From positions 1-64,000 of the forward strand of contig JAGGXZ010000081.1 in NCBI GenBank assembly GCA_021162805.1: DNA of 64,000 nucleotides, in the 5' to 3' direction. Positions 10,186 to 57,432 of this stretch are shown here, piece after piece. Position 1 is the first letter of the stretch; every line of letters starts with the position of its first letter. A program made the position numbers and the translations under genes. The stretch is from Candidatus Poribacteria bacterium. Lineage in GTDB: Bacteria > Poribacteria > WGA-4E > B28-G17. The notes under the pieces are model-generated. The model saw only the letters and a list, made by a program, of their open reading frames with translations, did no database searches and was not told the DNA's origin.

Positions 10186-10521
10186 TCACGCTTTCTCATC
10201 CTTTGAGATCAGCCTCTCAAGCTCGCTGCTGTATTCCGCTTCCGAGCGGACACCGACCAGTTTTCGGACGGCTTCCCCCTTGTGGAAGATGATCACCGTC
10301 GGTATGGCTCGAATTCCATATCTGTAGGCGAGCGATAGGTTCTCATCGACGTTGACTTTGCCTACCTTAACCTTCCCCTCATACTTCTCGGCGATTCTCT
10401 CCACTATCGGAGCTAGCATCAGACACGGGCCACACCAGGATGCCCAGAAATCGACCAAAACGGGCTTATCGGATGAGAGGACCTCGTTCTGAAAGTTTTT
10501 CTCGTTCAGCTCTATCTCCAT
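10186..10521 (-). CDS. trxA: Thioredoxin
   Basis: A 111-residue thioredoxin with the redox motif WCGPC ([14 protein letters not shown]), the cis-proline segment RAIPTVIIF and the [12 protein letters not shown] helix. It reduces protein disulfides in the cytosol. The ATG at 10521 is chosen because GAGAGGAGG precedes it; an upstream in-frame start would add 13 residues unlike the family. It lies behind a DUF6132-like membrane protein and a sigma-54 promoter. Confidence 0.95.
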
Positions 10522-10537
10522 ATCCGAACACCTCCTC

Positions 10538-10708
10538 TCACATGGTTGCGACCAACACACCCATGGCCGCGCCGTAGATTATGGCGCCATAGGGATTACA
10601 GAGGAAGATGCAATATCCCTTGGATTCGCTATATCTCGTGTAGATCCTATTCATAGCGAATCCCAGAGCTCCTCCCACGATTGCTCCTATCACCGCCTTC
10701 AAGATCAA
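10538..10708 (-). CDS. DUF6132-like small membrane protein, 56 residues
   Basis: Translation from a TTG six bases after GAGGTG gives two glycine-rich hydrophobic helices ([14 protein letters not shown] and [17 protein letters not shown]) joined by a loop with Cys33 and Cys37 and an NPYGA motif. The pattern resembles DUF6132 proteins, which have paired cysteines before an NPY segment. The stop is 16 bases before the trxA start, so the cysteine pair might be a thioredoxin partner (inference). Many annotation pipelines would miss it. Confidence 0.68.
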
Positions 10709-10744
10709 TCGTATCACCTCGGTTCATATTGATGAGGATTTATA

Positions 10745-10760
10745 AGCAAGACACGTGCCA
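10745..10760 (-). promoter_or_regulatory. Sigma-54 (-24/-12) promoter
   Basis: Read on the minus strand the site is TGGCACG, four bases, TTGCT, matching the consensus TGGCACG-N4-TTGCW exactly. The predicted transcript start is about 25 bases before the TTG of the DUF6132-like gene, so it would drive that gene and trxA. Confidence 0.85.
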
Positions 10761-10862
10761 TCTCGCCATCAGCAGCGGATCCCCCGCCACGAAAGATGAA
10801 TCCCAACGGGAGAAATCGGGAGATTTCGTCGCGCAACGAAGCTGTTGTGCAACGTTTGTGTT

Positions 10863-11714
10863 TCACGAAACAGAGATGATCATGTTATCTATGAGACGGG
10901 TGGTTCCGATGAAGACGGCCAAAGCCACCAGAACCTCTCCTTCTATCCTATCCACCTTCTCCAACGTCTCGGAGTCCACTATCTCGACGTAATCTATCTT
11001 AGCGAGCGGTTCAGATTCGATTAACCTACGCATCTCAGATATAATCCGATCGGCCTTTCTCTCGCCCGCCTCCGCGAGGCTTCGGGCCAAGTTTAGGGAT
11101 CTCCAAAGGACAAGGGCTGCTTTTCTCTCCTCAGGGGAAAGATACTCGTTCCTCGAGCTCATGGCCAGTCCGTCCGATTCTCTGACCGTGGGGACGGAGA
11201 TGATCTCGACGTCGAAGTTCAGATCCTTCGCCATGCGTTTGATCACCCTGAGCTGTTGGGCGTCCTTCTCGCCGAAATAGGCCCTATGTGGTTTGACTAT
11301 GTTGAAAAGCTTGGCGACTACGGTCGTGACGCCGCGGAAATGTCCGGGACGCCTGGCGCCGCAGAGCACCGATGTTAACGTTCCCGTCACCTCGACATAT
11401 GTGGCGTATCCGGCCGGATACATATCCTCGACCGATGGGACGAAGAGGAGATCGACGCCTTCCTTCTCGGCAAGTTCCCTGTCCCTATCGAGGTCTCGGG
11501 GATACCTCTCGTAATCCTCGTTCGGCCCGAACTGGGTGGGGTTAACGAAAAGGCTGACGACGAGGAGGTCGTTCTCCTCCCTTGCCCTGCGCATCAGCGT
11601 CAGGTGTCCCTCATGGAAATACCCCATGGTGGGGACGAATCCGATCCTCTTGCCCTGAAGACGCACCCTCTCGCAATGCCTCTGCACCTCCTCAGGCTTA
11701 CTCAGAACCATCAT
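10863..11714 (-). CDS. panC: Pantoate--beta-alanine ligase
   Basis: The 283-residue enzyme joins pantoate and beta-alanine with ATP to form pantothenate, the precursor of coenzyme A. The adenylyl-transferase signature [13 protein letters not shown] lies at residues 28-40, the [17 protein letters not shown] segment near 60, and KMSSRN-type [12 protein letters not shown] later (here [14 protein letters not shown]). Its ATG overlaps the preceding gene's stop by four bases. No other pantothenate genes are nearby, and pairing with an FAD/Fe-S oxidoreductase is unusual. Confidence 0.96.
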
Positions 11715-14554
11715 GGTTTCACCTCATATGACCTGAATAAAACCTCTATGGGGTGTATCGTTTTCAATCCTGTGGCCTGTTCTATCTGTAACCTGCAGGT
11801 TCCACAGCTCGATATGACGATCTCAGCACCGCTGGAGAGGATCTGCCGGAAAAGCGGTTCCCCGGCCTTCAGCGACAGGTCGTAATACTGCTTTTTCATT
11901 CCGAACGTCCCCGCTATCCCACAACATCTATCAGCCACGGTTGTAATCTCCAGTCCCGGTATCCGTCTCAAAATCACCAACGTTCTGTCCTCACCGAGCG
12001 CCTTGAGATGACACGGTATCTGATATGCCGCCTTCATATCGACCGGATTAAGCTCCTCCACCAGCTCGCCTCTTTCCTTCAGATCGAACAGGAACTCGAA
12101 TATGTAATGACAGTGCTCCGCCAGCCTTTTGGATCTTTCATCGTCCAATATCTCCGGATACTCCATCCTCACCGCCAGGAGGCAGCTCGGAGCGCTGAAG
12201 AGTATCTCGAATCCCTCATCGACCAGTTGGGAGAGGATGTCCACGTTCTCACGGATATCGTCCATTGACTCCTCTATACCGCCCATCGTGATCTTAGCCA
12301 CATTACAGCATTTGGTCTTCGGGATGTAAACCTCATACCCATGTCTGCGCAGCACCTCAACCGTCGATACCCCTTCGCCGGCCGGATCGTTGTAGTTGGC
12401 GTAACACCCGGCGAAATAGGCCACCTTTTTCTCCCCCGTCGGTTTTCGCCTCGGATATCTCCTGGAAAGGGTCATGAACCTGTACCTGGGCATCCTCCTA
12501 TCCCTGTGTATCCCGAGGATCAACTCCATCAGCCATCTGATCGGTTTGAGTTGCATCGTCAGATTGGCCAAAGGGGCGAAAGTAGTGGCGAGCGGAGCGA
12601 TTTTCGAGGCGTTGCCCAGGAATAGATTCTGAATCGAGAGGCCGTGTTCGCGCACATATACGGCCCTCGCCTCAAGACAAAGCATTGGGACGTTAACCAA
12701 CGCCGGGCATTCGTTCAGACATCGCTTACAGTTATAACATAGATCCATCACCGATTTGAACTCGGTTGAGGTCAGCATCTCAGGGGGAAGATCGCCTGTA
12801 AGAGCGGCCCTGATGAGATTCACCTTGGCGCGGCTGGCTCCTCTCTCCTCTCCCAGGGCACCGAACACCGGGCAATACGACCGACATGTGCCGCAGCCGT
12901 CGCATTTCTCCAGTTCCTCGTGCATCCTCTCCCGATCAAGCCTCGATCCGGTCTGTATATATCGATATTCCGGCCCGTAACGGAGGTTATCGGTGAATCC
13001 CTTGCCTTCCTGAGGGATGATCTTGCCGGGATTGAGCAGGTTGAGCGGATCGAACAGGCGTTTGACCTGGAAGAACAGATCGTAAAGCTCGCCGAACTCC
13101 TTCCTGAGGAAGGGCGTTCTCAGCAATCCGTCGCCGTGTTCGCCCGAAATCGACCCCTCCATCTCCACCACCAGCGAGAAGGTTTCCTCCGCTATCAGCC
13201 GCATCTTCTCGATATCCGATGGGTCCTTGGGATTTAACAGGGGTCTGACGTGAAAGTTGCTATCTCCGGCATGCCCTATCGTACCTACGCGAACGTCATA
13301 TCTCTTCAGTATCCCCCAGAGCTTACCGAGGAACTCGGCCAATCTTTCGGGAGGAACCGACACGTCCTCGATGAAGCGCAGCGGTCGTTTCTCTCCCTTT
13401 ACCCTTCCCAAGATAGCGGAACCGGCCTTTCGGACCCTCCAGAGCTTATCGGCCTCATCCTGATCACGGGCGGGCAGGAAATCGGTGACCAGCCCTTCCT
13501 CTCTCAGAGATCGCTCCGCCTCTTTGAGCTTTTGACGAACCCGATCTGAATCCTCACCGTCGAACTCTATCAGATATACCATCTCAACCTTTTCAGGTAG
13601 GAATCGTCCCAGCTCCCTTTCCCTCATGCGTACCAGATCCACAACCAACCCATCCATCACATCTATCGCGCTAGGGCCTAGTTCCAGCAGAATCGGCACG
13701 GCCATTCCGGCCTTAACGACATCGTCGAAATATGCCATCGCCACAGCCTTGTGCTTCGGGAGATCGATGACGCGCAATCTAGCCTCCGTTACGATGCATA
13801 ACGTTCCCTCAGATCCGACGATCAGCTTCGACAGGTCGAACATCCTATTCTGAATCAGGTCGAATAGGTTATATCCGCTTGAGCTTTTGGCCTTAGGCCG
13901 ATACCTCTCGATGAGATCCCTGTTTTCAATGGTGATACTTTTAAGTCCCTCATAGATCTCCTGTTCAAGCGAGCCGGGCCTGCCGGGAAAATCATCGGGT
14001 ATAAGCTCCAGGGGAACGGGTTTGGTTTTCACCAGATCTCCGTCTGAGAGCACCAGCTCAAGCGATAGGACGTAATCCTTCGTGGTCCCATATTTGACGG
14101 ATCTTGCGCCGGAGGAGTTGTTGGCGATTCCACCTCCGATGGTGCTATAGGCGCTGCTTGAGGTATCGGGGGGGAAGAACTTGCCATACCTTTTAAGCTC
14201 CCTCTGTAGGATATCCTGGACGACCCCGGGCTGAACGACGGCATATCCATCATCGGGATTGATCTCGATTATACGGTTCATGTATTTGCTCAGATCGACG
14301 ATCAGGCCGTCATTCACCGCCTGACCGGCAAGGCTGGAACCGGCTCCCCTTGCCGTAAGGGATATCCTTTGATCGGATGCGTATTCGGCCAGTTTAACCA
14401 GATCGTCGGCGTTTTTCGGATATATCACCCCGATCGGCTTGATCTTATAAAGACAAGCGGCGGTGCTGTAGATCGTCCGGGTTATCTCATCGAACCTAAC
14501 GTCACCGCTTATGAGCGTTTTCAGATGTCTTTCAACTCTATCGGGATCAATCAT
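11711..14554 (-). CDS. FAD-linked oxidase fused to Fe-S/CCG oxidoreductase (GlcD-GlpC type)
   Basis: A 947-residue fusion. Residues about 35-200 are the FAD-binding PCMH domain ([19 protein letters not shown]), 220-490 the FAD-oxidase C domain with HAGDSNFH, and 540-640 hold two 4Fe-4S sites ([12 protein letters not shown] and [12 protein letters not shown]). Two CCG domains follow (KTKCCN and [11 protein letters not shown]). Such fusions oxidise D-lactate, glycolate or other 2-hydroxy acids and pass electrons to the quinone pool at the membrane. The substrate is not determined. GGAGATGAAAG precedes the ATG. Confidence 0.9.
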
Positions 14555-45979: not shown

Positions 45980-46576
45980 GTGTCCCATCAACCTTCGGAC
46001 GAGGAACTGATGTCTCAGCTCAAAAAGGGGAAAGTGGAGGCGTTTGATATGCTCTTCGCCAGATATCGAAAGCCGCTTTTCAGCTTCATCCTCAGGATGC
46101 TGGGCGATTTCCACAGGGCGCAGGATATATTCCAGGAGACCTTCCTCCGCGTTTTCCGTCACGCTCAGAGGTTCGACGAGTCGCTCAGCTTCTCCCCATG
46201 GCTTTACCGGATCGCCCGCAACCTCTGCCTGGAGGAGATCCGCAGACGGGAGAGGGTCGAGACCATCCCCATAGATGAGAGGGCGGAACTTCAACCGAAG
46301 GAGCTGTGGGAGGGCAGGACGCCGGATGAGGAGCTGGTGAGGAGGGAGATGAGACGAGTTTTGGAGGGAGCTATCCTTCGCCTTACGTGGAAACAGCGAG
46401 AGGTGTTCCTGCTTCGTGAGATTCAGGGGCTCTCCTACGAGGAGATAGGGCAGGTTACAGGGATGTCCGTCCCTGCGGTAAAATCGTGTCTTCATCGGGC
46501 ACGGATGGCTTTGAAGGAGATGCTTACCCCCTACCTGAAATCCGGCGAAATGCCGATAGGGAGGATGAAGCGATGA
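45980..46576 (+). CDS. ECF sigma factor 1
   Basis: A 198-residue sigma-70-family ECF protein. Region 2 is visible as AQDIFQETFLRVFRHAQRF and region 4 as LTWKQREVFLLREIQGLSYEEIGQVTGMSVPAVKSCLHRAR. It directs RNA polymerase to a dedicated regulon. GTG start after GAGGG. It overlaps the anti-sigma gene by four bases, and its position suggests it drives the peptide cluster just downstream. Confidence 0.92.
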   Translation: MSHQPSDEELMSQLKKGKVEAFDMLFARYRKPLFSFILRMLGDFHRAQDIFQETFLRVFRHAQRFDESLSFSPWLYRIARNLCLEEIRRRERVETIPIDERAELQPKELWEGRTPDEELVRREMRRVLEGAILRLTWKQREVFLLREIQGLSYEEIGQVTGMSVPAVKSCLHRARMALKEMLTPYLKSGEMPIGRMKR

Positions 46577-46980
46577 GATGCGAAAGATGCAGAAAGCTAC
46601 TATCGTGGTATCTTGAGTCGGATTTGCCATCAGGGGAGATGAGGGAGATCGAGGAACACCTTTCGACCTGTAAGGAGTGCTCGGGGGAGCTTAAACTGCT
46701 CGAGGAGACGCTGGCGTTGGCAAGGGAATTGCCTCAGCTTGAGCCGCCGGAGGAAACCTGCCTACAACTGCTGGAGAAGGTCAGGGCGATAGCGAAGTTT
46801 GAGAAAGTCATATACATCTGGAGGGAGATGCAAAGCGGAGGAAAAGCAGAAGTTTTCTTCTCTAAGAGGCTGTTGCCGGTAGACCGAGAAGTTGGAAGGA
46901 ATTTCCAATACCAGGCCCGGATTGTGAGGAGATTGGATGGAACGTGGTGGAAATTTGCAAGGATAAGTTTTCTTGGCTGA
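46573..46980 (+). CDS. Zinc-finger (HC2-type) anti-sigma factor 1
   Basis: A 135-residue protein with the zinc-binding pattern CERCRKLL and HLSTCKECSGEL that anti-sigma factors use to hold ECF factors. No membrane helix is evident, and the C-terminal 55 residues look atypical, so a shifted or truncated C-terminus is possible. ATGA overlap with the sigma gene. Confidence 0.75.
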   Translation: MRCERCRKLLSWYLESDLPSGEMREIEEHLSTCKECSGELKLLEETLALARELPQLEPPEETCLQLLEKVRAIAKFEKVIYIWREMQSGGKAEVFFSKRLLPVDREVGRNFQYQARIVRRLDGTWWKFARISFLG

Positions 46981-47036: not shown

Positions 47037-47079
47037 AGTTCCGAAAACTTGAACAATTGGAGGCAAGGAGGTAAGAAAG

Positions 47080-47283
47080 ATGAAGACATATGAAAAACCG
47101 CGGGTAATGGAAACTATACCTGCCGAACAGATATTGATAAATGAGGAAAGTCAAAGTCCGGAATGGCGTGATTGGTCTAATTGGCCTAACTGGTCTAATT
47201 GGCCTAATTGGTCCAATTGGAGCAATACAGAATCGGTTTTGCAACCAGGGATAGAAATCCCTGAAGGAGGTGAAGGGGAATGA
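47080..47283 (+). CDS. RiPP precursor peptide 1 with Trp-X-Asn repeats
   Basis: A 67-residue peptide. Residues 1-28 form a leader (KTYEKPRVMETIPAEQIL) shared with the peptide at 47629. The core has seven Trp at positions 29, 32, 35, 38, 41, 44 and 47, giving WRD and then six WxN units (x is Ser or Pro). A Gly/Glu tail follows. Radical SAM triceptide enzymes link an aromatic ring to the beta carbon of the third residue of such Omega-X-X motifs. AAGGAGG precedes the ATG, and the stop overlaps the PqqD-like gene (ATGA). Confidence 0.8.
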   Translation: MKTYEKPRVMETIPAEQILINEESQSPEWRDWSNWPNWSNWPNWSNWSNTESVLQPGIEIPEGGEGE

Positions 47284-47570
47284 TTCAGAAACCCGGGATG
47301 TATCCGTGGATAGATGTGAAGGAATTGGGAGAGGAAGCTCAGGGAGAAGCGATAATATACAACTATGCCAGAGGTGAAGTTCACAGGATAAACGCCACCG
47401 CTCTAGAGGTGCTTAAGATGTGCGATGGGAAACATACTGCTGAGGAGATAGCCGGAAAGCTAGCGGAGATCTATGATGTCGATCTTGATATCGCTAAGGA
47501 AGATGTCAGGGAACTGATCAATAGGTTCGCCGAGTTAGAGCTTGTTCAGGAGGGTGAGTTTCCCGGATAA
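47280..47570 (+). CDS. PqqD-like RiPP recognition protein
   Basis: A 96-residue PqqD-family protein: INATALEVLKMCDGKHTAEEIAGKLAEIYDVD and DVRELINRFAELELVQEG give the winged-helix recognition fold. Such proteins bind the leader peptide and deliver it to the radical SAM enzyme. It is coupled to precursor 1 and followed by a terminator hairpin. Confidence 0.88.
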   Translation: MIQKPGMYPWIDVKELGEEAQGEAIIYNYARGEVHRINATALEVLKMCDGKHTAEEIAGKLAEIYDVDLDIAKEDVRELINRFAELELVQEGEFPG

Positions 47571-47628: not shown

Positions 47629-47814
47629 ATGGAAAAGGCGTATGAGAAACCTCAGATATTGGAGACCATGCCCATCGAGCAGGTGTTGAGAGGCGAGATG
47701 GGCGAGGGGATCGCTCCAGAGTGGGTGAATTGGAACCAGAGTTGGAATAACAGTTGGCTAAACACAGGAGTAGTTCCACAGCCAGAAGGGGAAACTTCTG
47801 TACTGTCAAATTAA
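47629..47814 (+). CDS. RiPP precursor peptide 2
   Basis: A 61-residue peptide with leader KAYEKPQILETMPIEQVL matching precursor 1. The core EWVNWNQSWNNSWLNT has Trp at 32, 35, 39 and 43, so WVN, WNQ, WNN and WLN triads with slightly wider spacing. A short Pro/Glu/Ser tail ends it. AAGGAGG precedes the ATG. It lies between a terminator and the glycosyltransferase gene. Confidence 0.78.
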   Translation: MEKAYEKPQILETMPIEQVLRGEMGEGIAPEWVNWNQSWNNSWLNTGVVPQPEGETSVLSN

Positions 47815-47953: not shown

Positions 47954-49498
47954 ATGAAGGTAGCGCTAGTCGGCCCAAATCCTAACCGATTGGAAGATTT
48001 TCCTGTTCTTAAAAGTATCCAGCGAGTATTCGAAAACTTATTGCTCTCATTAGAATCGGAAGCTGAAGTGGTAAAAGGGTGGGAGAACGAATCTGATCTC
48101 TTTCGGGTAGATGCGATCGTTGGGTCATATGAGGCTTTAAGAATTCGACATAACCTTCACCTTGATATCCCCGTTTTGATTTTCACTTTTGGAGACATGC
48201 CTAATGGAGGATTGATGCTACTTGCCTACCATGGCCTGCTCAGACCTTACGATTGTTTGGCTTTCTCATGCTCTTCCGATCTCATTATATTCGATAGATT
48301 GGTCAAGCAGCGTGATCTGATGACAGAAGTGATCCCGTTCCCCGTAAATTGCGATGTTTTTAGCAGGAGATCGGTTAACCGTGAATCGATAAGGAGAAAA
48401 TATGGGATCTCTGAGAAGGGTAAACTGCTGTTCTATGCTGGGCGGGTAAGCCTGCAGAAAAACTTATATGTGCTGATAAGGATATTCGAGGAGGTGACGA
48501 AGGAGAGAGAAGCCGTCTTGTGCATCGCCGGTGCTCCAGATCAAACCCCGTTGAAGGAGTTCGGAGTTTGCGGGTGGGGATACGCTCACAAGTTAAAAGA
48601 GGCTGTGCGAAAGAGAGGTTTAGCGGATAAAGTGATATTCGTTGGCTATCTCGATGACAACGCTTTAGTGGAGCTATATTCTGCATCGGATCTGTTTATC
48701 AACCCAACTCTTCATCATGATGAGAACTTTGGGTTTTCCCAGGTCGAAGCTCAATCGTGTGGTTTACCGGTCGTTGCTTCAAAGTGGGGAGGTATCAAAG
48801 ATACAGTGCTTCATGGGGAAACAGGATTTCTTATGGAGACGATCCTAACCGATAACGGACCGAGGTTAGAATGGCGCTCTGGAGTCAAATATATCTTAAA
48901 CTTGCTCTCTGATGATGACATATTGTGGAGGAGAATGTCCGATAGGTGCAGAACCCACGTTTTATCAACCTTTAGCATAAAAGCTGTTGGGAAGAGGATA
49001 AAGTCAACCCTGGAGGAGATGATCTCCATCAAAAGAAAGGTGAGGCCAACTGCTTCCCCTGTTGTGAGGATAAAAGACGAAATAAAGAGTTACATAATCG
49101 GCTCTATAAAACTAAGCGAAGAAGGGAAGCTTAGGTATCATAACCTACCTGTAGCTGGTTCCAAGGAGGCAAGGTGGTTTTATAAAATCCGGATGGAACC
49201 GTATTCGTCCACGATGCTTTCGAAAATAGAGGACATAGATGAGACAGTCAGGCCGTATAAAGCGATCGATTTGGAAGTTGATGTGGATAAGGGAATTATA
49301 AAACTGTTAGATCTCATGTGGCCCGGAGAGATTCGGCTTGATCCTAGTTCCCTCACCTTCCTACTTTTATCCAACGGAGAAAGATGCGTGGCTGAAATAT
49401 GTGATAGGGCGGGTATCTCAAGGGAAAGCGGTATTAGGATTTTCCGGGGGCTTATTAGGAAAGGCCTGATCCTCTATATGAAAGAAGGAGGTGGATAG
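47954..49498 (+). CDS. GT4-type glycosyltransferase with PqqD-like C-terminus
   Basis: A 514-residue protein. Residues 1-365 are a GT-B glycosyltransferase; GKLLFYAGRVSLQKN opens the donor-binding half and ENFGFSQVEAQSCGLPVVAS is the EX7E motif. After a linker, residues 430-510 (LTFLLLSNGERCVAEICDRAGISRESGIRIF) look like a PqqD-type winged helix. A leader-binding domain on a transferase suggests it glycosylates the peptide, but the sugar and site are unknown. The start overlaps none; the end overlaps the radical SAM ribosome site. Confidence 0.78.
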   Translation: MKVALVGPNPNRLEDFPVLKSIQRVFENLLLSLESEAEVVKGWENESDLFRVDAIVGSYEALRIRHNLHLDIPVLIFTFGDMPNGGLMLLAYHGLLRPYDCLAFSCSSDLIIFDRLVKQRDLMTEVIPFPVNCDVFSRRSVNRESIRRKYGISEKGKLLFYAGRVSLQKNLYVLIRIFEEVTKEREAVLCIAGAPDQTPLKEFGVCGWGYAHKLKEAVRKRGLADKVIFVGYLDDNALVELYSASDLFINPTLHHDENFGFSQVEAQSCGLPVVASKWGGIKDTVLHGETGFLMETILTDNGPRLEWRSGVKYILNLLSDDDILWRRMSDRCRTHVLSTFSIKAVGKRIKSTLEEMISIKRKVRPTASPVVRIKDEIKSYIIGSIKLSEEGKLRYHNLPVAGSKEARWFYKIRMEPYSSTMLSKIEDIDETVRPYKAIDLEVDVDKGIIKLLDLMWPGEIRLDPSSLTFLLLSNGERCVAEICDRAGISRESGIRIFRGLIRKGLILYMKEGGG

Positions 49499-49499
49499 G

Positions 49500-50915
49500 A
49501 TGTACTCTATCTTTAACCCCGAGCTGCTTCCTCGGTTTTCACTGGAAGAAGATATCAGGGTGGTTCGCTTCAATGACAGATATATCGCTATATCCCCTGA
49601 CACCGGGGGATGGATCGTTTTGGATACACCGGAGCTTTACAAGGTATTTTCGCTTCCGCTAACTTGGGAAATCGGCAGCGAGCTCTATATAAGAGGGATA
49701 GCAAGAAGAAACGGAGTTCCAATCTACACCCCTCCTAACCCGTCTGAGCTTAAGAGGATGACATACTTTGAGTTTCAACTGACCAATGGGTGTAACCTAA
49801 GGTGTGATTACTGCAATGTTGACGCTAAACCTTTAAATGAAGCAAATAAGGCCTCTTTCGATGTAGCGGAGAAGCTCATAGATAGGATCATAGAATATTG
49901 CTTGAACAACGCCATATTCAGAGTTACGGTGCAGTTCAGTGGTGGTGAACCTTTCACCAATTTCGACGTAATGGAACATACATGTTATTACGTTTCTGAA
50001 AGGTTAAAGGGGGAGAAGTTCCCAAAAAAACTGGATTTTCAAGTTCAAACAAATCTTGCCTTTCACCTCGAAGAGAAATGGTTAGAGTTCGTTAAGAAAT
50101 TTCAAATTGGACTGGGAGTCAGCTTAGATGGACCCAAGAAATATCATGACACTCACAGGAAATTCCCGGATGGAAGAGGAAGCTGGGATCTGATTATGAA
50201 GAATCTGGCCAAGTTGAGGGAAGAGGGGATACCATTCGGTGTAATAAGCGTTATAACTCCTGAAAGTGTCTCCGGGATGAAACAGATCGCTGAATTCTTT
50301 TTAAAAATCGGGATAACCGGATTCGTATTAACGCCGCTCCTCCCGGCGGGAAGAGGCTCCAAGATACATGCTTTGGCACCAAGGGAATATACCCACAGGC
50401 TTTTTGAAGTATTCGATGAAGTTCTCATCCCTTATTACAAAGCGACAGGTGAAATGCCACGAGAAAGAGAGTTAGGATTAGCCCTTTTGAATTTCATTCA
50501 GCCGTCAAGACACTATATGTGTTGGAGAACTCCATGTGGGGCAGGGACAAATATATGTGCTGTAACACCCTCTGGAGATGTGTTTCCTTGTGGTTACTGG
50601 GTTAACGAACCAAAGTTTAAAATGGGGAATATCTACTATAACAGCTTCGATGAGATGATATCTGGTAAGGTTGCTTCAACTTTGAGGGGAAGAGAGATCA
50701 GATCGCTGGAGGGGTGTTCGGATTGCCTCTATAGAGCTTGGTGCCAATCACGATGTCCTTTCAGCTCATATCTCCGCTATGGGGATATATTCAAGCCATC
50801 AGGATATTGTGAAATAATGAAAGAATTATTTTCGGAACTCCTGGAAAGGGTGGCCTCCGGCGGTTTAGACGAGCAATCCGTTTATGCACTAGCGCGGAAA
50901 GTGTTGTATTTATGA
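49500..50915 (+). CDS. Radical SAM/SPASM peptide maturase
   Basis: A 471-residue enzyme. Residues 1-85 may be a recognition domain (LPRFSLEEDIRVVRFNDRY). The cluster motif is NGCNLRCDYCNVD, with SGGEPF after it. SPASM cysteines follow in CGAGTNICAVTPSGDVFPCGYW and CSDCLYRAWCQSRC. This architecture is that of cyclophane-, sactipeptide- or similar RiPP maturases; WxN cores favour three-residue cyclophanes (inference). The ATG at 49500 follows GGAGGTG; an in-frame GTG nine bases earlier overlaps that site. Confidence 0.85.
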   Translation: MYSIFNPELLPRFSLEEDIRVVRFNDRYIAISPDTGGWIVLDTPELYKVFSLPLTWEIGSELYIRGIARRNGVPIYTPPNPSELKRMTYFEFQLTNGCNLRCDYCNVDAKPLNEANKASFDVAEKLIDRIIEYCLNNAIFRVTVQFSGGEPFTNFDVMEHTCYYVSERLKGEKFPKKLDFQVQTNLAFHLEEKWLEFVKKFQIGLGVSLDGPKKYHDTHRKFPDGRGSWDLIMKNLAKLREEGIPFGVISVITPESVSGMKQIAEFFLKIGITGFVLTPLLPAGRGSKIHALAPREYTHRLFEVFDEVLIPYYKATGEMPRERELGLALLNFIQPSRHYMCWRTPCGAGTNICAVTPSGDVFPCGYWVNEPKFKMGNIYYNSFDEMISGKVASTLRGREIRSLEGCSDCLYRAWCQSRCPFSSYLRYGDIFKPSGYCEIMKELFSELLERVASGGLDEQSVYALARKVLYL

Positions 50916-50931: not shown

Positions 50932-52416
50932 ATGATGCTTGGGACGATAGTGGCAAAGGAGTTCCTGTCGAACATCTTGACCTTCCGCTTCTCGATAGGC
51001 TTCCTCGTCTGTCTCCTGCTGATCGTGGCAAGCAGTTATGTTTTGACGCAGGATTACGCCGACAGGTTGGAGAGCTATCGGACGGCGATTCGGGAATATG
51101 AAGAGGAGATGTCGAAGATAAAGGTGTATTCGGAGCTCTGCGGCGACCATAAGCCGAAGGCTTTCAGGAAACCTAAACCCTTGAGCGTTTTCAATCAAGG
51201 GGTGGATAAGCGCTTGGGAAATGTCGTTGAGGCTTCAGTCGGTACCGTCCCGATGAGGGCAAAGGAATACAGCCCTGCCAACCCATACATGAGCGTCTTC
51301 CCATCGGTGGATCTTGCGTTAGTCTTCCAGGTCGTTTTGAGCTTGTTGGCCTTGCTTTTCGCCTACGATGCGATCTCCGGCGAGCGAGAAGACGGCACGT
51401 TGTGTCTGATGCTGTCCAACGACGTTCCTAGAGATACGGTTTTACTCGGCAAGTATTTGGGTGGGATGGTCAGTCTATTGCTGCCGCTGATGGTGAGCCT
51501 ACTCGGAGGCTTGCTGGTTATGCAGCTTTCACCGGGGATATCGCTGAAAGGAGCCGATTGGGCGCGTATCGGTTTGATCTTTCTGGTTTCTCTCCTTTAT
51601 CTCTCCCTCTTTTATCTTCTGGGGCTTCTCCTTTCAATCCGGACACATCGCTCAAGCACTGCCCTGATGTTCGCCATGTTCCTCTGGGTCACCCTTGTTC
51701 TGATTTTCCCAAGCGCCACCGTTTTCCTGGTGGATAAACTCGCCCCCATTCGCTCTGAGGAGACGGTCGCCTCAGCTACGTCGGAGATCTGGAAGGAGTT
51801 TAACTCGAAATCGGATGAGTTCCTGAAGAAGTTGGGGTTAAAATCCCCTTTCGAGATGGCTAACGCCGGCTCGACCGTCAGTTCCAGATCGGACAGCTTC
51901 ACCTGGGGAGAAACCGTAAAGGCGTACGGTTTCAGATCGGAGGAGGGGGTCAGGTTAGCCCAGGAGTTTTATGGATTCAAATGCAGACTGGCAGTTGAGT
52001 ATGCGGATAAGGTCTGGCAGGTTTACAGGAAGTATCTGGACGAAAACCCAATCCGTCAGGCAAGATTGGCTTTGAACATCTCCCGCATCTCGCCCGCTGC
52101 GGCATATTACAACGCCACGGCTGTGCTTTCGGAAACCGACCTCGGAAACTTTTTGAATTTCATGGCCCAGGCCAGAATGTATCGGGATCAAATCGTCCAA
52201 TATCTTACCGATAAAAAGGCATTCTCCTCTCGCCAATGGTTCGCCGATGACAAGGGTGTGGCCGACATAACCGACCTACCCAGGTTCAGCGAACGACGCG
52301 AGGGAATAGGTGACAGCTTAAAACGAGCGGGCGTCGATATCCTACTTCTGGTCATCCTGAACTTCCTCCTCTTCCTCGGAGGATATGCCTCCTTTTTGAG
52401 GTGTGACGTTAGATGA
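50932..52416 (+). CDS. ABC-2/DUF3526-type permease A2
   Basis: A 494-residue type A permease: opening MLGTIVAKEFLSNILTFRF, helix near 20-40, extracytoplasmic part, helices around SGEREDGTLCLMLSNDVP and a final helix. It begins 16 bases after the radical SAM stop, so it probably belongs to the peptide operon and would export the product with B2. No ATPase gene is adjacent. Confidence 0.8.
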   Translation: MMLGTIVAKEFLSNILTFRFSIGFLVCLLLIVASSYVLTQDYADRLESYRTAIREYEEEMSKIKVYSELCGDHKPKAFRKPKPLSVFNQGVDKRLGNVVEASVGTVPMRAKEYSPANPYMSVFPSVDLALVFQVVLSLLALLFAYDAISGEREDGTLCLMLSNDVPRDTVLLGKYLGGMVSLLLPLMVSLLGGLLVMQLSPGISLKGADWARIGLIFLVSLLYLSLFYLLGLLLSIRTHRSSTALMFAMFLWVTLVLIFPSATVFLVDKLAPIRSEETVASATSEIWKEFNSKSDEFLKKLGLKSPFEMANAGSTVSSRSDSFTWGETVKAYGFRSEEGVRLAQEFYGFKCRLAVEYADKVWQVYRKYLDENPIRQARLALNISRISPAAAYYNATAVLSETDLGNFLNFMAQARMYRDQIVQYLTDKKAFSSRQWFADDKGVADITDLPRFSERREGIGDSLKRAGVDILLLVILNFLLFLGGYASFLRCDVR

Positions 52417-53861
52417 TCAGGGAGATTATCAAAAGGGAGCTTTTGGATTACATACTCAGTCTCAGGTTTTCGCTCTCTCTCGGTTTGGTTTTGATGTTGA
52501 TGGTGGCGAACGCCCTCGTTTTCATCAAGGACTATGATGACCGTCTGAGGGAATATTCAAACGACGTCAGTAACTCCTTGGAAAGGTTGAAGGAGAAAGC
52601 GGGGAACCTGAGCGACCTCGCGATAGAAGGTCCTGGAGGGTTATACAAGTTCCCAAGCCATCTGGCTTTTTGTGCTAAGGGCGGTGACGATCTTCTGCCG
52701 AAGAAGGTGGAGGGAAGTTCAGGCGGCAGTTACGGCGTCGGCTACAATAAATTCCGCTATTTCTGGAAATCGCTGTGGCGGCTCTCCTATCCGCCGGTCA
52801 GATATCGAAGGAACAACTACCTTCCCGATTTCACCGAGCTGGACTGGAGCTTCATCGTCGGAGTGGTGATGAGTTTCGTAGCGATTTTGTTCACCTTCGA
52901 CTCCATATCCGGGGAACGTGAGAGAGGGACATTACAACTTGTGTTTTCCAATCCCGTATCGCGAGGAGCTGTGTTGCTGGGCAAGCTGTTTGGAGCGTTG
53001 GCCGGGATTTTGATTCCACTGGCTTTTGGCATCTTCGTCAACCTCCTGATTATCAACCTCTCCGGGGACGTTCAGCTTGAAGGGAATGATTGGGTTAGAA
53101 TCGGCGTGATAATAGCTTTGTCGGTTGTTTATCTCACCGGATTCCTTTGTCTGGGACTTGTGGTATCCACCTGCTCCTCCCGTTCATCAACCAGCTTGGT
53201 GACACTGCTTTTAGTGTGGGTGATCCTCGTGGTGTTGTCCCCAAACACGCTCGGATCGATAGCTGGTCGTTGGGGACGCTCTTGGACAAGCAGTGAGTTC
53301 TCACGCAGATTGAAATCAGCTCAACAGGAGGTCAAATCGAGGTATCCTGATGAGAAGCTTTATGCAGCATCGCCTTCGGAAAAACCGCCGAAGATCGAAG
53401 CGATCCGGCTTTGGGCGAGGTATCTGGTGGAATGGAGAGAAGCTGAAAGCAGGGTGGAGGATGAGCATCTAAAGCGTCAGTTCAAACAGGTGGAAAGAGC
53501 GTTTCAAATAACAAGGCTTTCCCCTACCGCTATCTTTCAATATGCATTACAGGCCGTGGCCGGGACGGGATTTGTCCGCCATAAACATTTCATCGCTCAA
53601 GCGAAGCGATATAAAGAGATATTTGAGGAATTCATCAGATCGGAGGACAGAAAAGACCCAAACAGCCTACACATCTGGCTCATAAAGGAAGGGTTATCTC
53701 AGAGGCCCGTCCATCCCGAAGGCATACCGAAGTTCGTCGAGCGATATACACTGACGGATGCAATTCAAAGGGGAATTCTGGACATCGGTCTTTTAGCCTT
53801 ATTCTGTCTGTTCCTTTTCATGGGGGCGTTTCTCTCTTTTCTGAGGGCGCATCTGAAGTGA
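52413..53861 (+). CDS. ABC-2/DUF3526-type permease B2
   Basis: A 482-residue type B permease: opening MIREIIKRELLDYILSLRFSL, helices around SGERERGTLQLVFSNPVSRG, cytoplasmic/extracytoplasmic domain and final helix. ATGA overlap with A2 implies a heterodimer. The TumE toxin gene follows convergently. Confidence 0.8.
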   Translation: MIREIIKRELLDYILSLRFSLSLGLVLMLMVANALVFIKDYDDRLREYSNDVSNSLERLKEKAGNLSDLAIEGPGGLYKFPSHLAFCAKGGDDLLPKKVEGSSGGSYGVGYNKFRYFWKSLWRLSYPPVRYRRNNYLPDFTELDWSFIVGVVMSFVAILFTFDSISGERERGTLQLVFSNPVSRGAVLLGKLFGALAGILIPLAFGIFVNLLIINLSGDVQLEGNDWVRIGVIIALSVVYLTGFLCLGLVVSTCSSRSSTSLVTLLLVWVILVVLSPNTLGSIAGRWGRSWTSSEFSRRLKSAQQEVKSRYPDEKLYAASPSEKPPKIEAIRLWARYLVEWREAESRVEDEHLKRQFKQVERAFQITRLSPTAIFQYALQAVAGTGFVRHKHFIAQAKRYKEIFEEFIRSEDRKDPNSLHIWLIKEGLSQRPVHPEGIPKFVERYTLTDAIQRGILDIGLLALFCLFLFMGAFLSFLRAHLK

Positions 53862-56697: not shown

Positions 56698-57432
56698 ATG
56701 GATCTGCTCAGGTCAAAGAGATTAATGATCCTGCTTTCGCTTACAATCTTGGTGATAATCGTTCTGGTGATTTTGAAAACTCATCATATGCCTATCTCAT
56801 CTGTTGGTGGGAGGGGTAAAACTTCCTCAGAAGAGGTCATAAAATCAGAGATGATAACTTCCAAGACGAAAGCTCCTGATGAAGGTATCTCAGATAAGGA
56901 GATTGATAAGTTTCTGGAGAAAGTAGAAAAGCTCTTGGAAGAACTTCCAGAGGAACCGGCGAAGATACAATCTGAGGAGAAGGTCCAATCTGAGGGGCAG
57001 GAGAACGAAGAGAGCGGAAAAACAACGGAAGAGATGAAAATAGCCGAGGGGAAAGAAGAGGCTTCTGAGTCAGAAGGCAACTCCCTCAATCAGGATGAGG
57101 AGGAACATTGTCCTACCGTTGAGGAGATCCTCAGCACCGTAGGTCTCATCCCACCTGAGGAAACGATTAGGCTTATCAATTTGGCTCTCAGAAAGCCGGA
57201 TTTATTAACCGAGGAGGAATTAACAACACTTTTGTTGCTAAAAAGTGAAATTTCCAAAGCATATTTTCCAGAACCTGAGCGTGTCGTTATTGATAAGAGA
57301 TCGGGGACGACCAAGTATTACCTTTTGCCTGCAGGAAAGTATAATGTTGACCGAGATACCGTTCCAATCTCAAAAGAGGAAGCTGAGGCTTTAATAAGCC
57401 AAGGAGTTGGGACGGTTACCCTTAACCCTTAA
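56698..57432 (+). CDS. Hypothetical single-span protein with acidic linker
   Basis: A 244-residue protein with one membrane helix near residues 8-27 and a long Glu/Lys/Ser-rich disordered stretch (about 40-135). A C-terminal region follows, with LTEEELTTLLLLKSEIS and a SGTTKYYLLPAGKYNVDRD segment. GGGGGG lies nine bases before the ATG. It follows the IS remnant and belongs in position to the sigma factor 2 module. Function unknown. Confidence 0.65.
   Translation: MDLLRSKRLMILLSLTILVIIVLVILKTHHMPISSVGGRGKTSSEEVIKSEMITSKTKAPDEGISDKEIDKFLEKVEKLLEELPEEPAKIQSEEKVQSEGQENEESGKTTEEMKIAEGKEEASESEGNSLNQDEEEHCPTVEEILSTVGLIPPEETIRLINLALRKPDLLTEEELTTLLLLKSEISKAYFPEPERVVIDKRSGTTKYYLLPAGKYNVDRDTVPISKEEAEALISQGVGTVTLNP

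Follow-up and report, generated by a model that had tools for sequence, protein, structure and literature searches.

The window analysed here is a stretch of 64,000 nucleotides from a Candidatus Poribacteria bacterium (contig JAGGXZ010000081.1, forward strand). It contains a compact operon with, in this order, precursor 1, a PqqD-type protein, precursor 2, a GT4 glycosyltransferase and a radical SAM/SPASM enzyme. The features of the operon and its flanks are:

45980..46576 (+), ECF sigma factor upstream of the operon, a possible regulator (profile matches)
46573..46980 (+), zinc-finger anti-sigma factor, also upstream (PF13490, E 1.7e-9)
47065..47072 (+), Shine-Dalgarno sequence of precursor 1, AAGGAGGT
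47080..47283 (+), precursor 1, an ORF of 67 amino acids, translation MKTYEKPRVMETIPAEQILINEESQSPEWRDWSNWPNWSNWPNWSNWSNTESVLQPGIEIPEGGEGE
47080..47163 (+), leader of precursor 1, M1-E28, with Y4-E-K-P-R-V as an RRE-binding-type motif (motif in PMC13381572)
47164..47226 (+), array WRD-WSN-WPN-WSN-WPN-WSN-WSN, W29-N49, the presumed core (sequence, TRF, shuffles)
47227..47283 (+), C-terminal tail of precursor 1, T50-E67 and stop (alignment)
47280..47570 (+), discrete PqqD/RRE protein whose start overlaps the stop of precursor 1 (PF05402, E 4.2e-15)
47629..47814 (+), precursor 2, with the same leader as precursor 1 (sequence, alignment)
47722-47763 (+), core of precursor 2, W32-N45, WVN-WNQ-S-WNN-S-WLN
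47954..49498 (+), GT4 glycosyltransferase (PF00534, E 9.2e-32; the AF2 model matches the GT4 structures BshA/MshA)
49136..49495 (+), C-terminal domain of the glycosyltransferase, an RRE-like winged helix by model (AF2 pLDDT 79; weak Foldseek matches)
49500..50915 (+), radical SAM/SPASM peptide maturase (PF04055, E 3e-19; PF13186, E 2.6e-9)
50932..53861 (+), two ABC-2/DUF3526-type permease genes downstream, possible exporters (profile matches)

Translation bears out what had been noticed from the DNA alone, namely seven Trp residues in steps of three (positions 29, 32, 35, 38, 41, 44 and 47) that form one WRD and six WxN units, with Asp once and Asn six times at Trp+2. The middle residues run R, S, P, S, P, S, S; the alternation of Ser and Pro described earlier holds up to the sixth unit and is broken at the last, and Pro is central in two units. 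The interval first proposed for the array, 47158-47230, contains it but is a few bases too wide. The near-repeat of 9-18 bp was recovered by TRF at about 47171-47220, as a 9-bp unit in 5.6 copies (82% matches) and as an 18-bp super-repeat of it in 2.7 copies (93% matches). Expansion by duplication is plausible, given 18-bp copies 93% alike, but no homologous precursor with another repeat number was found among 85 genomes of the phylum searched by DNA pattern, or among plasmids, where tblastn of the precursor gave no match.

Chance is excluded as the origin of the seven-Trp array. Given the composition, the probability that all seven Trp fall at spacing three is 5.6e-8, and in 200,000 shuffles the W-run was never longer than 5. 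None of 100 dinucleotide-shuffled versions of the window gave three tandem units, and the six frames of the window hold no run of three W-x-[ND] units besides the array. Units compared at a lag of two differ at three third, one first and one second codon positions, too few to prove selection.

Precursor 2 is 47% identical to precursor 1 overall; their leaders have KxYEKPxxxETxPxEQxL in common, and their tails NTxxVxQP. Its core has four W-x-[N/Q] units, with V, N, N and L as middle residues, and its Trp are spaced 3, 4, 4. In both cores together, Trp+2 is N, D or Q for 11 of 11 Trp (7/7 and 4/4), and position +1 varies. Judged from these two sequences, the conserved unit is the W-x-N tripeptide and not exact spacing, because precursor 2 spaces its Trp otherwise yet keeps N/Q at Trp+2; the regular spacing of precursor 1 is then a special case, in which units are packed without linkers. 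The exact three-residue step that the sequence-only reading had taken as the principle is thereby weakened as a rule, and its idea of rings is strengthened, since a constant +2, a variable +1 and differing Trp spacing indicate an i to i+2 unit. The further proposal made there, that rings could run over the entire chain, goes too far, as the 21-residue array has 28 residues before it and 18 after it, and the tail is partly conserved between the precursors. The rigid, rod-like shape suggested there would be hypothetical. A homologous cluster showing W-x-N conservation beyond the two paralogues was not found.

The suggestion of a core ready for cross-linking gains from the position of the W-x-N/D units beside a radical SAM/SPASM gene, with both Pfam domains above cut-off. 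The enzyme carries, in alignments, the CxxxCxxC motif (C98, C102, C105) and the SPASM cysteines. Its best NCBIfam profile is HxsB, at 175.8 bits against a cut-off of 370, followed by PapB (163), CbpB (150), sulfatase maturase (146) and DynA (144.5 bits), and it passes the cut-off of no curated peptide-maturase family. The profiles of cyclophane-forming families score it lower than HxsB, PapB or sulfatase maturase, with GrrM/OscB at 105 bits (cut-off 310), FxsB at 77 (370), YhhB at 93 (445) and AmcB at 89 (425), and XyeB is not in the best 25 NCBIfam matches; the enzyme thus belongs to none of these five families. In a tree of 19 proteins, which has long branches and leaves out the proven cyclophane-forming enzymes (GrrM/OscB references), it lies outside the HxsB clade (clade support 100/100) and has no supported sister. 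Its closest relatives among those found share about 25-30% identity with it, and the solved structures closest to it in sequence are 5wgg, a radical SAM domain protein, and sulfatase maturases. With the enzyme outside the HxsB clade and its relatives so distant, the chemistry is not readable from homology, and since no curated family accepts the enzyme, we infer it from the substrate instead.

Several known systems resemble parts of the operon. Triceptides are made by XncB, OscB/GrrM and MscB, which form three-residue cyclophanes (Nguyen 2020 and Sugiyama 2022, as given in PMC11002830), and cross-links from Trp to Asn, Asp and Gln have been reported (PMC11002830, PMC10373908). Like them, the operon has W-x-N/W-x-D units, a radical SAM/SPASM enzyme and a leader followed by a C-terminal core, and all 11 Trp units have the aromatic-x-X3 form with a reported X3 residue. 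Unlike them, it has an enzyme below the cut-offs of the cyclophane-forming families, a separate PqqD protein, a GT4 with an RRE-like tail, and seven contiguous units, two of them Pro-centred. The His-Xaa-Ser system (HxsA/HxsB/HxsC/HxsD) provides the closest curated radical SAM family and also has gap-free aromatic-x-polar tripeptides. HxsA-type precursors fetched from beside HxsB carry 5-8 gap-free H-x-S units, as in Adhaeribacter (HTS-HRS-HSS-HRS-HSS-HSS-HSS-HYS), Aeromonas (HRS-HRS-HSS-HRS-HSS-HRS-HYS), and Leptospira and Paraburkholderia (five units each); because such arrays exist, contiguous tripeptides of this kind are not unique to the operon. The operon differs in having W-x-N for H-x-S, another leader, a GT4 and an enzyme outside the HxsB clade; the HxsC/HxsD partners, a His-x-Ser core and a second radical SAM gene are all absent from it. 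A search of the phylum for the HxsB family gave the enzyme of the window as its sole match, below the cut-off. No paper on the product of the His-Xaa-Ser system was found in the literature searched.

The leader points to another group of peptides. Both YEKPRV and YEKPQI match [Y/W]xxPx[L/V/I/F/A], the leader motif bound by discrete lasso RREs (PMC13381572), which favours a RiPP, and four precursors of lasso type from a second genome of the phylum (locus L037) have K-[TA]-Y-x-x-P in common. The best NCBIfam profile of the PqqD protein is lasso_PqqD_Strm, at 35 bits, below its cut-off of 70. The operon is like the lasso clusters L037 and L040 in its YxxP leader, its discrete PqqD/B1-like protein and its homologous GT4. 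The stretch from the ECF sigma gene to the permeases downstream encodes neither a B2 transglutaminase-like protease nor an asparagine-synthetase-like cyclase, and because the operon is without B2 protease and macrolactam cyclase, its core chemistry must differ from that of lasso peptides. Linear polyphosphorylated peptides, a non-lasso RiPP family with predicted glycosylation, likewise use a lasso-like YxxP leader and a discrete RRE outside the lasso class (PMC13381572); unlike the operon, they are described in that paper with no mention of radical SAM enzymes or Trp.

We consider it probable that this is a RiPP operon whose radical SAM enzyme closes W-x-N/D/Q units as three-residue cyclophanes and whose GT4 adds a sugar. 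This reading is favoured because all 11 residues at Trp+2 are reported cross-link partners, because neither precursor contains Cys and Trp is the sole aromatic residue of the core, and because the best profile of the enzyme is HxsB, whose substrates carry 5-8 contiguous H-x-S tripeptides. A sactipeptide or ranthipeptide would have Cys in the core. In the proposed pathway, the PqqD protein, and possibly also RRE-like domains of the other enzymes, would bind the YEKPxx leader of both precursors. The radical SAM/SPASM enzyme would then link, iteratively, each Trp indole by a C-C bond to the side chain of the second residue after it (N, D or Q), at the beta carbon by precedent. Each unit would become a strained cyclophane, and precursor 1 could gain as many as seven adjacent rings, precursor 2 four. 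Sugar would be added to the peptide by the GT4, a protease from outside the operon would remove the leader and perhaps the tail, and the product may be exported, at a guess by the ABC-2 permeases. These belong to a larger permease/sigma array of about 42-64 kb, and their tie to the operon is therefore positional only. At 42940-63268 of the window, ECF sigma/anti-sigma pairs are scattered among several ABC-2/DUF3526-type permease genes, and the window ends with an ABC ATPase-like ORF. A secreted peptide would be the default expectation for the product and its function.

It has to be considered that the repeat units may instead be the substrate of the GT4, with Trp, Ser or Asn decorated and the radical SAM enzyme acting elsewhere or on few sites. 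W-x-x-W is a C-mannosylation motif, and the array can also be read as (WxxW)n with three N-W-S sequons. The GT4 carries an RRE-like domain and has homologues in lasso and LanKC clusters, and in NAI-112 the enzyme AplG N-glycosylates Trp (PMC10373908). However, precursor 2 keeps W-x-[N/Q] with a single W-x-x-W and no N-W-S, so that what the two precursors conserve is no sugar sequon, and a homologous glycosyltransferase acts beside lasso precursors without Trp arrays. We therefore regard this explanation as unlikely. Slightly less likely is another Trp modification by the radical SAM enzyme, such as Trp-Trp or Trp-to-i+3 cross-links, daropeptide-like ethers or epimerisation. DynA scores above the cyclophane-forming families, at 144.5 bits, and Aro-x-x-Asn precursors with radical SAM enzymes have been described (PMC9062424); yet Trp is absent from i+2, and the residues at Trp+3 (W,W,W,W,W,W,T in precursor 1 against W,S,S,T in precursor 2) differ between the precursors, which leaves no i+3 partner common to both cores.

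The precursor 1 ORF is most likely a real gene, given its Shine-Dalgarno sequence AAGGAGGT, the ATGA at 47280-47283 in which it overlaps pqqD, and the leader common to precursor 2. An assembly error seems unlikely as the source of the array, because it is only 63 bp long, its units are non-identical and precursor 2 has W-x-N without DNA repetition. That the array is a neutral tandem-repeat expansion or an alternate-frame artefact (e.g. a collagen-like Gly-x-x ORF) and plays no part in the structure of the product is highly improbable: another frame of the array DNA does read GLIGLTGLIGLIGPIG (GLIGLTGLIG...), and in viral contigs the pattern is mostly not a small W-frame ORF, but that frame has no Shine-Dalgarno sequence, pqqD overlap or leader common with precursor 2, all of which mark the W frame, and the units of precursor 2 owe nothing to DNA repetition. 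The viral contigs hold at least 120 loci with the W-x-N DNA pattern; among the matches listed there are 21 W-frame ORFs, 20 of them with a longer overlapping ORF and none beside a radical SAM-like ORF, and the DNA pattern by itself is therefore not diagnostic.

The cluster is an orphan. Of 85 genomes of the phylum, only that of the window has the DNA pattern for three W-x-N units, the radical SAM enzyme is absent at E 1e-40 from 58 other genomes, and the genome scan gave only four remote matches (25-27%), from Clostridia-type MAGs. GC3 is 0.48 for the glycosyltransferase and 0.45 for the radical SAM gene, about 2.5-2.9 s.d. below the mean of the long ORFs of the window (0.64, s.d. 0.065), and 0.37 for precursor 1. 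Low GC3 together with absence from the relatives searched fits horizontal acquisition of the operon, without proving it. An unannotated ORF of 244 amino acids at 56698-57432 of the window, without a Pfam match, equals the RiPP island in its low GC3 (0.45).

The glycosyltransferase was left out of the sequence-only reading, whose observation is confirmed here and whose interpretation is supported in part. Its tail is modelled as beta-strands followed by three helices (pLDDT 79), and Foldseek gave weak matches (E 0.036 or worse) that include the lasso B1 RREs 6jx3 and 5v1v and other RiPP RRE proteins; hhalign against PqqD gave nothing. The model suggests a putative RRE-like domain, and RRE-GT fusions have been noted in general (PMC7470986, PMC12710340). 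In cluster L037, a GT4 with 27% identity to that of the window accompanies a PqqD-like protein, a B2-like protease and an Asn-synthase-type cyclase; at 10352-11745 (-) four or more lasso-type precursors follow one another there, with YxxP leaders and differing cores. Another GT4 homologue lies in a second lasso-type locus (L040), and in two more genomes homologues adjoin LanKC-type lanthipeptide synthetase genes (RamC_N, kinase and LANC_like in L039; a LANC_like fragment in L038). From these four loci, glycosylated lasso peptides and lanthipeptides are predicted in the phylum. In the same genome as the window, a GT4 homologue of 36% identity, with its N-terminal part missing, follows a radical SAM gene (L036, contig C105, 3161-6878), and this locus and L028 (contig C15, 4268-11069) are further arrangements of ECF sigma, radical SAM and GT4 genes. 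At L026 (contig C51, 3439-8506), that genome also encodes three precursors that combine a Tat-type signal (RRDFLKK/RREFLKK) with C-N-x-G repeats and that adjoin a TatA gene, a GT4 and a radical SAM gene with an N-terminal PqqD-like region (best profile ScmF, 288/400 bits); the product is possibly a Tat-exported Cys/Asn-repeat RiPP.

The ring chemistry would be of a known kind, and the array, the enzyme branch and the sugar partner look new. Only tentatively do we propose the full picture, in which a new branch of SPASM maturases makes a glycosylated Trp cyclophane of seven rings without gaps, with a leader/RRE/GT4 module interchangeable across lasso, LanKC and radical SAM clusters of the phylum. 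If true, one enzyme would close seven strained rings side by side on a template whose units can be multiplied genetically, and repeat number could set ring number; the processivity, direction and Pro tolerance of cyclophane formation could then be tested directly. The gap-free and the interrupted natural precursors are a built-in experiment on whether spacing matters. Taken together with its homologues in lasso and lanthipeptide clusters of the phylum, the GT4 partner suggests a sugar-tailoring module that is independent of RiPP class.
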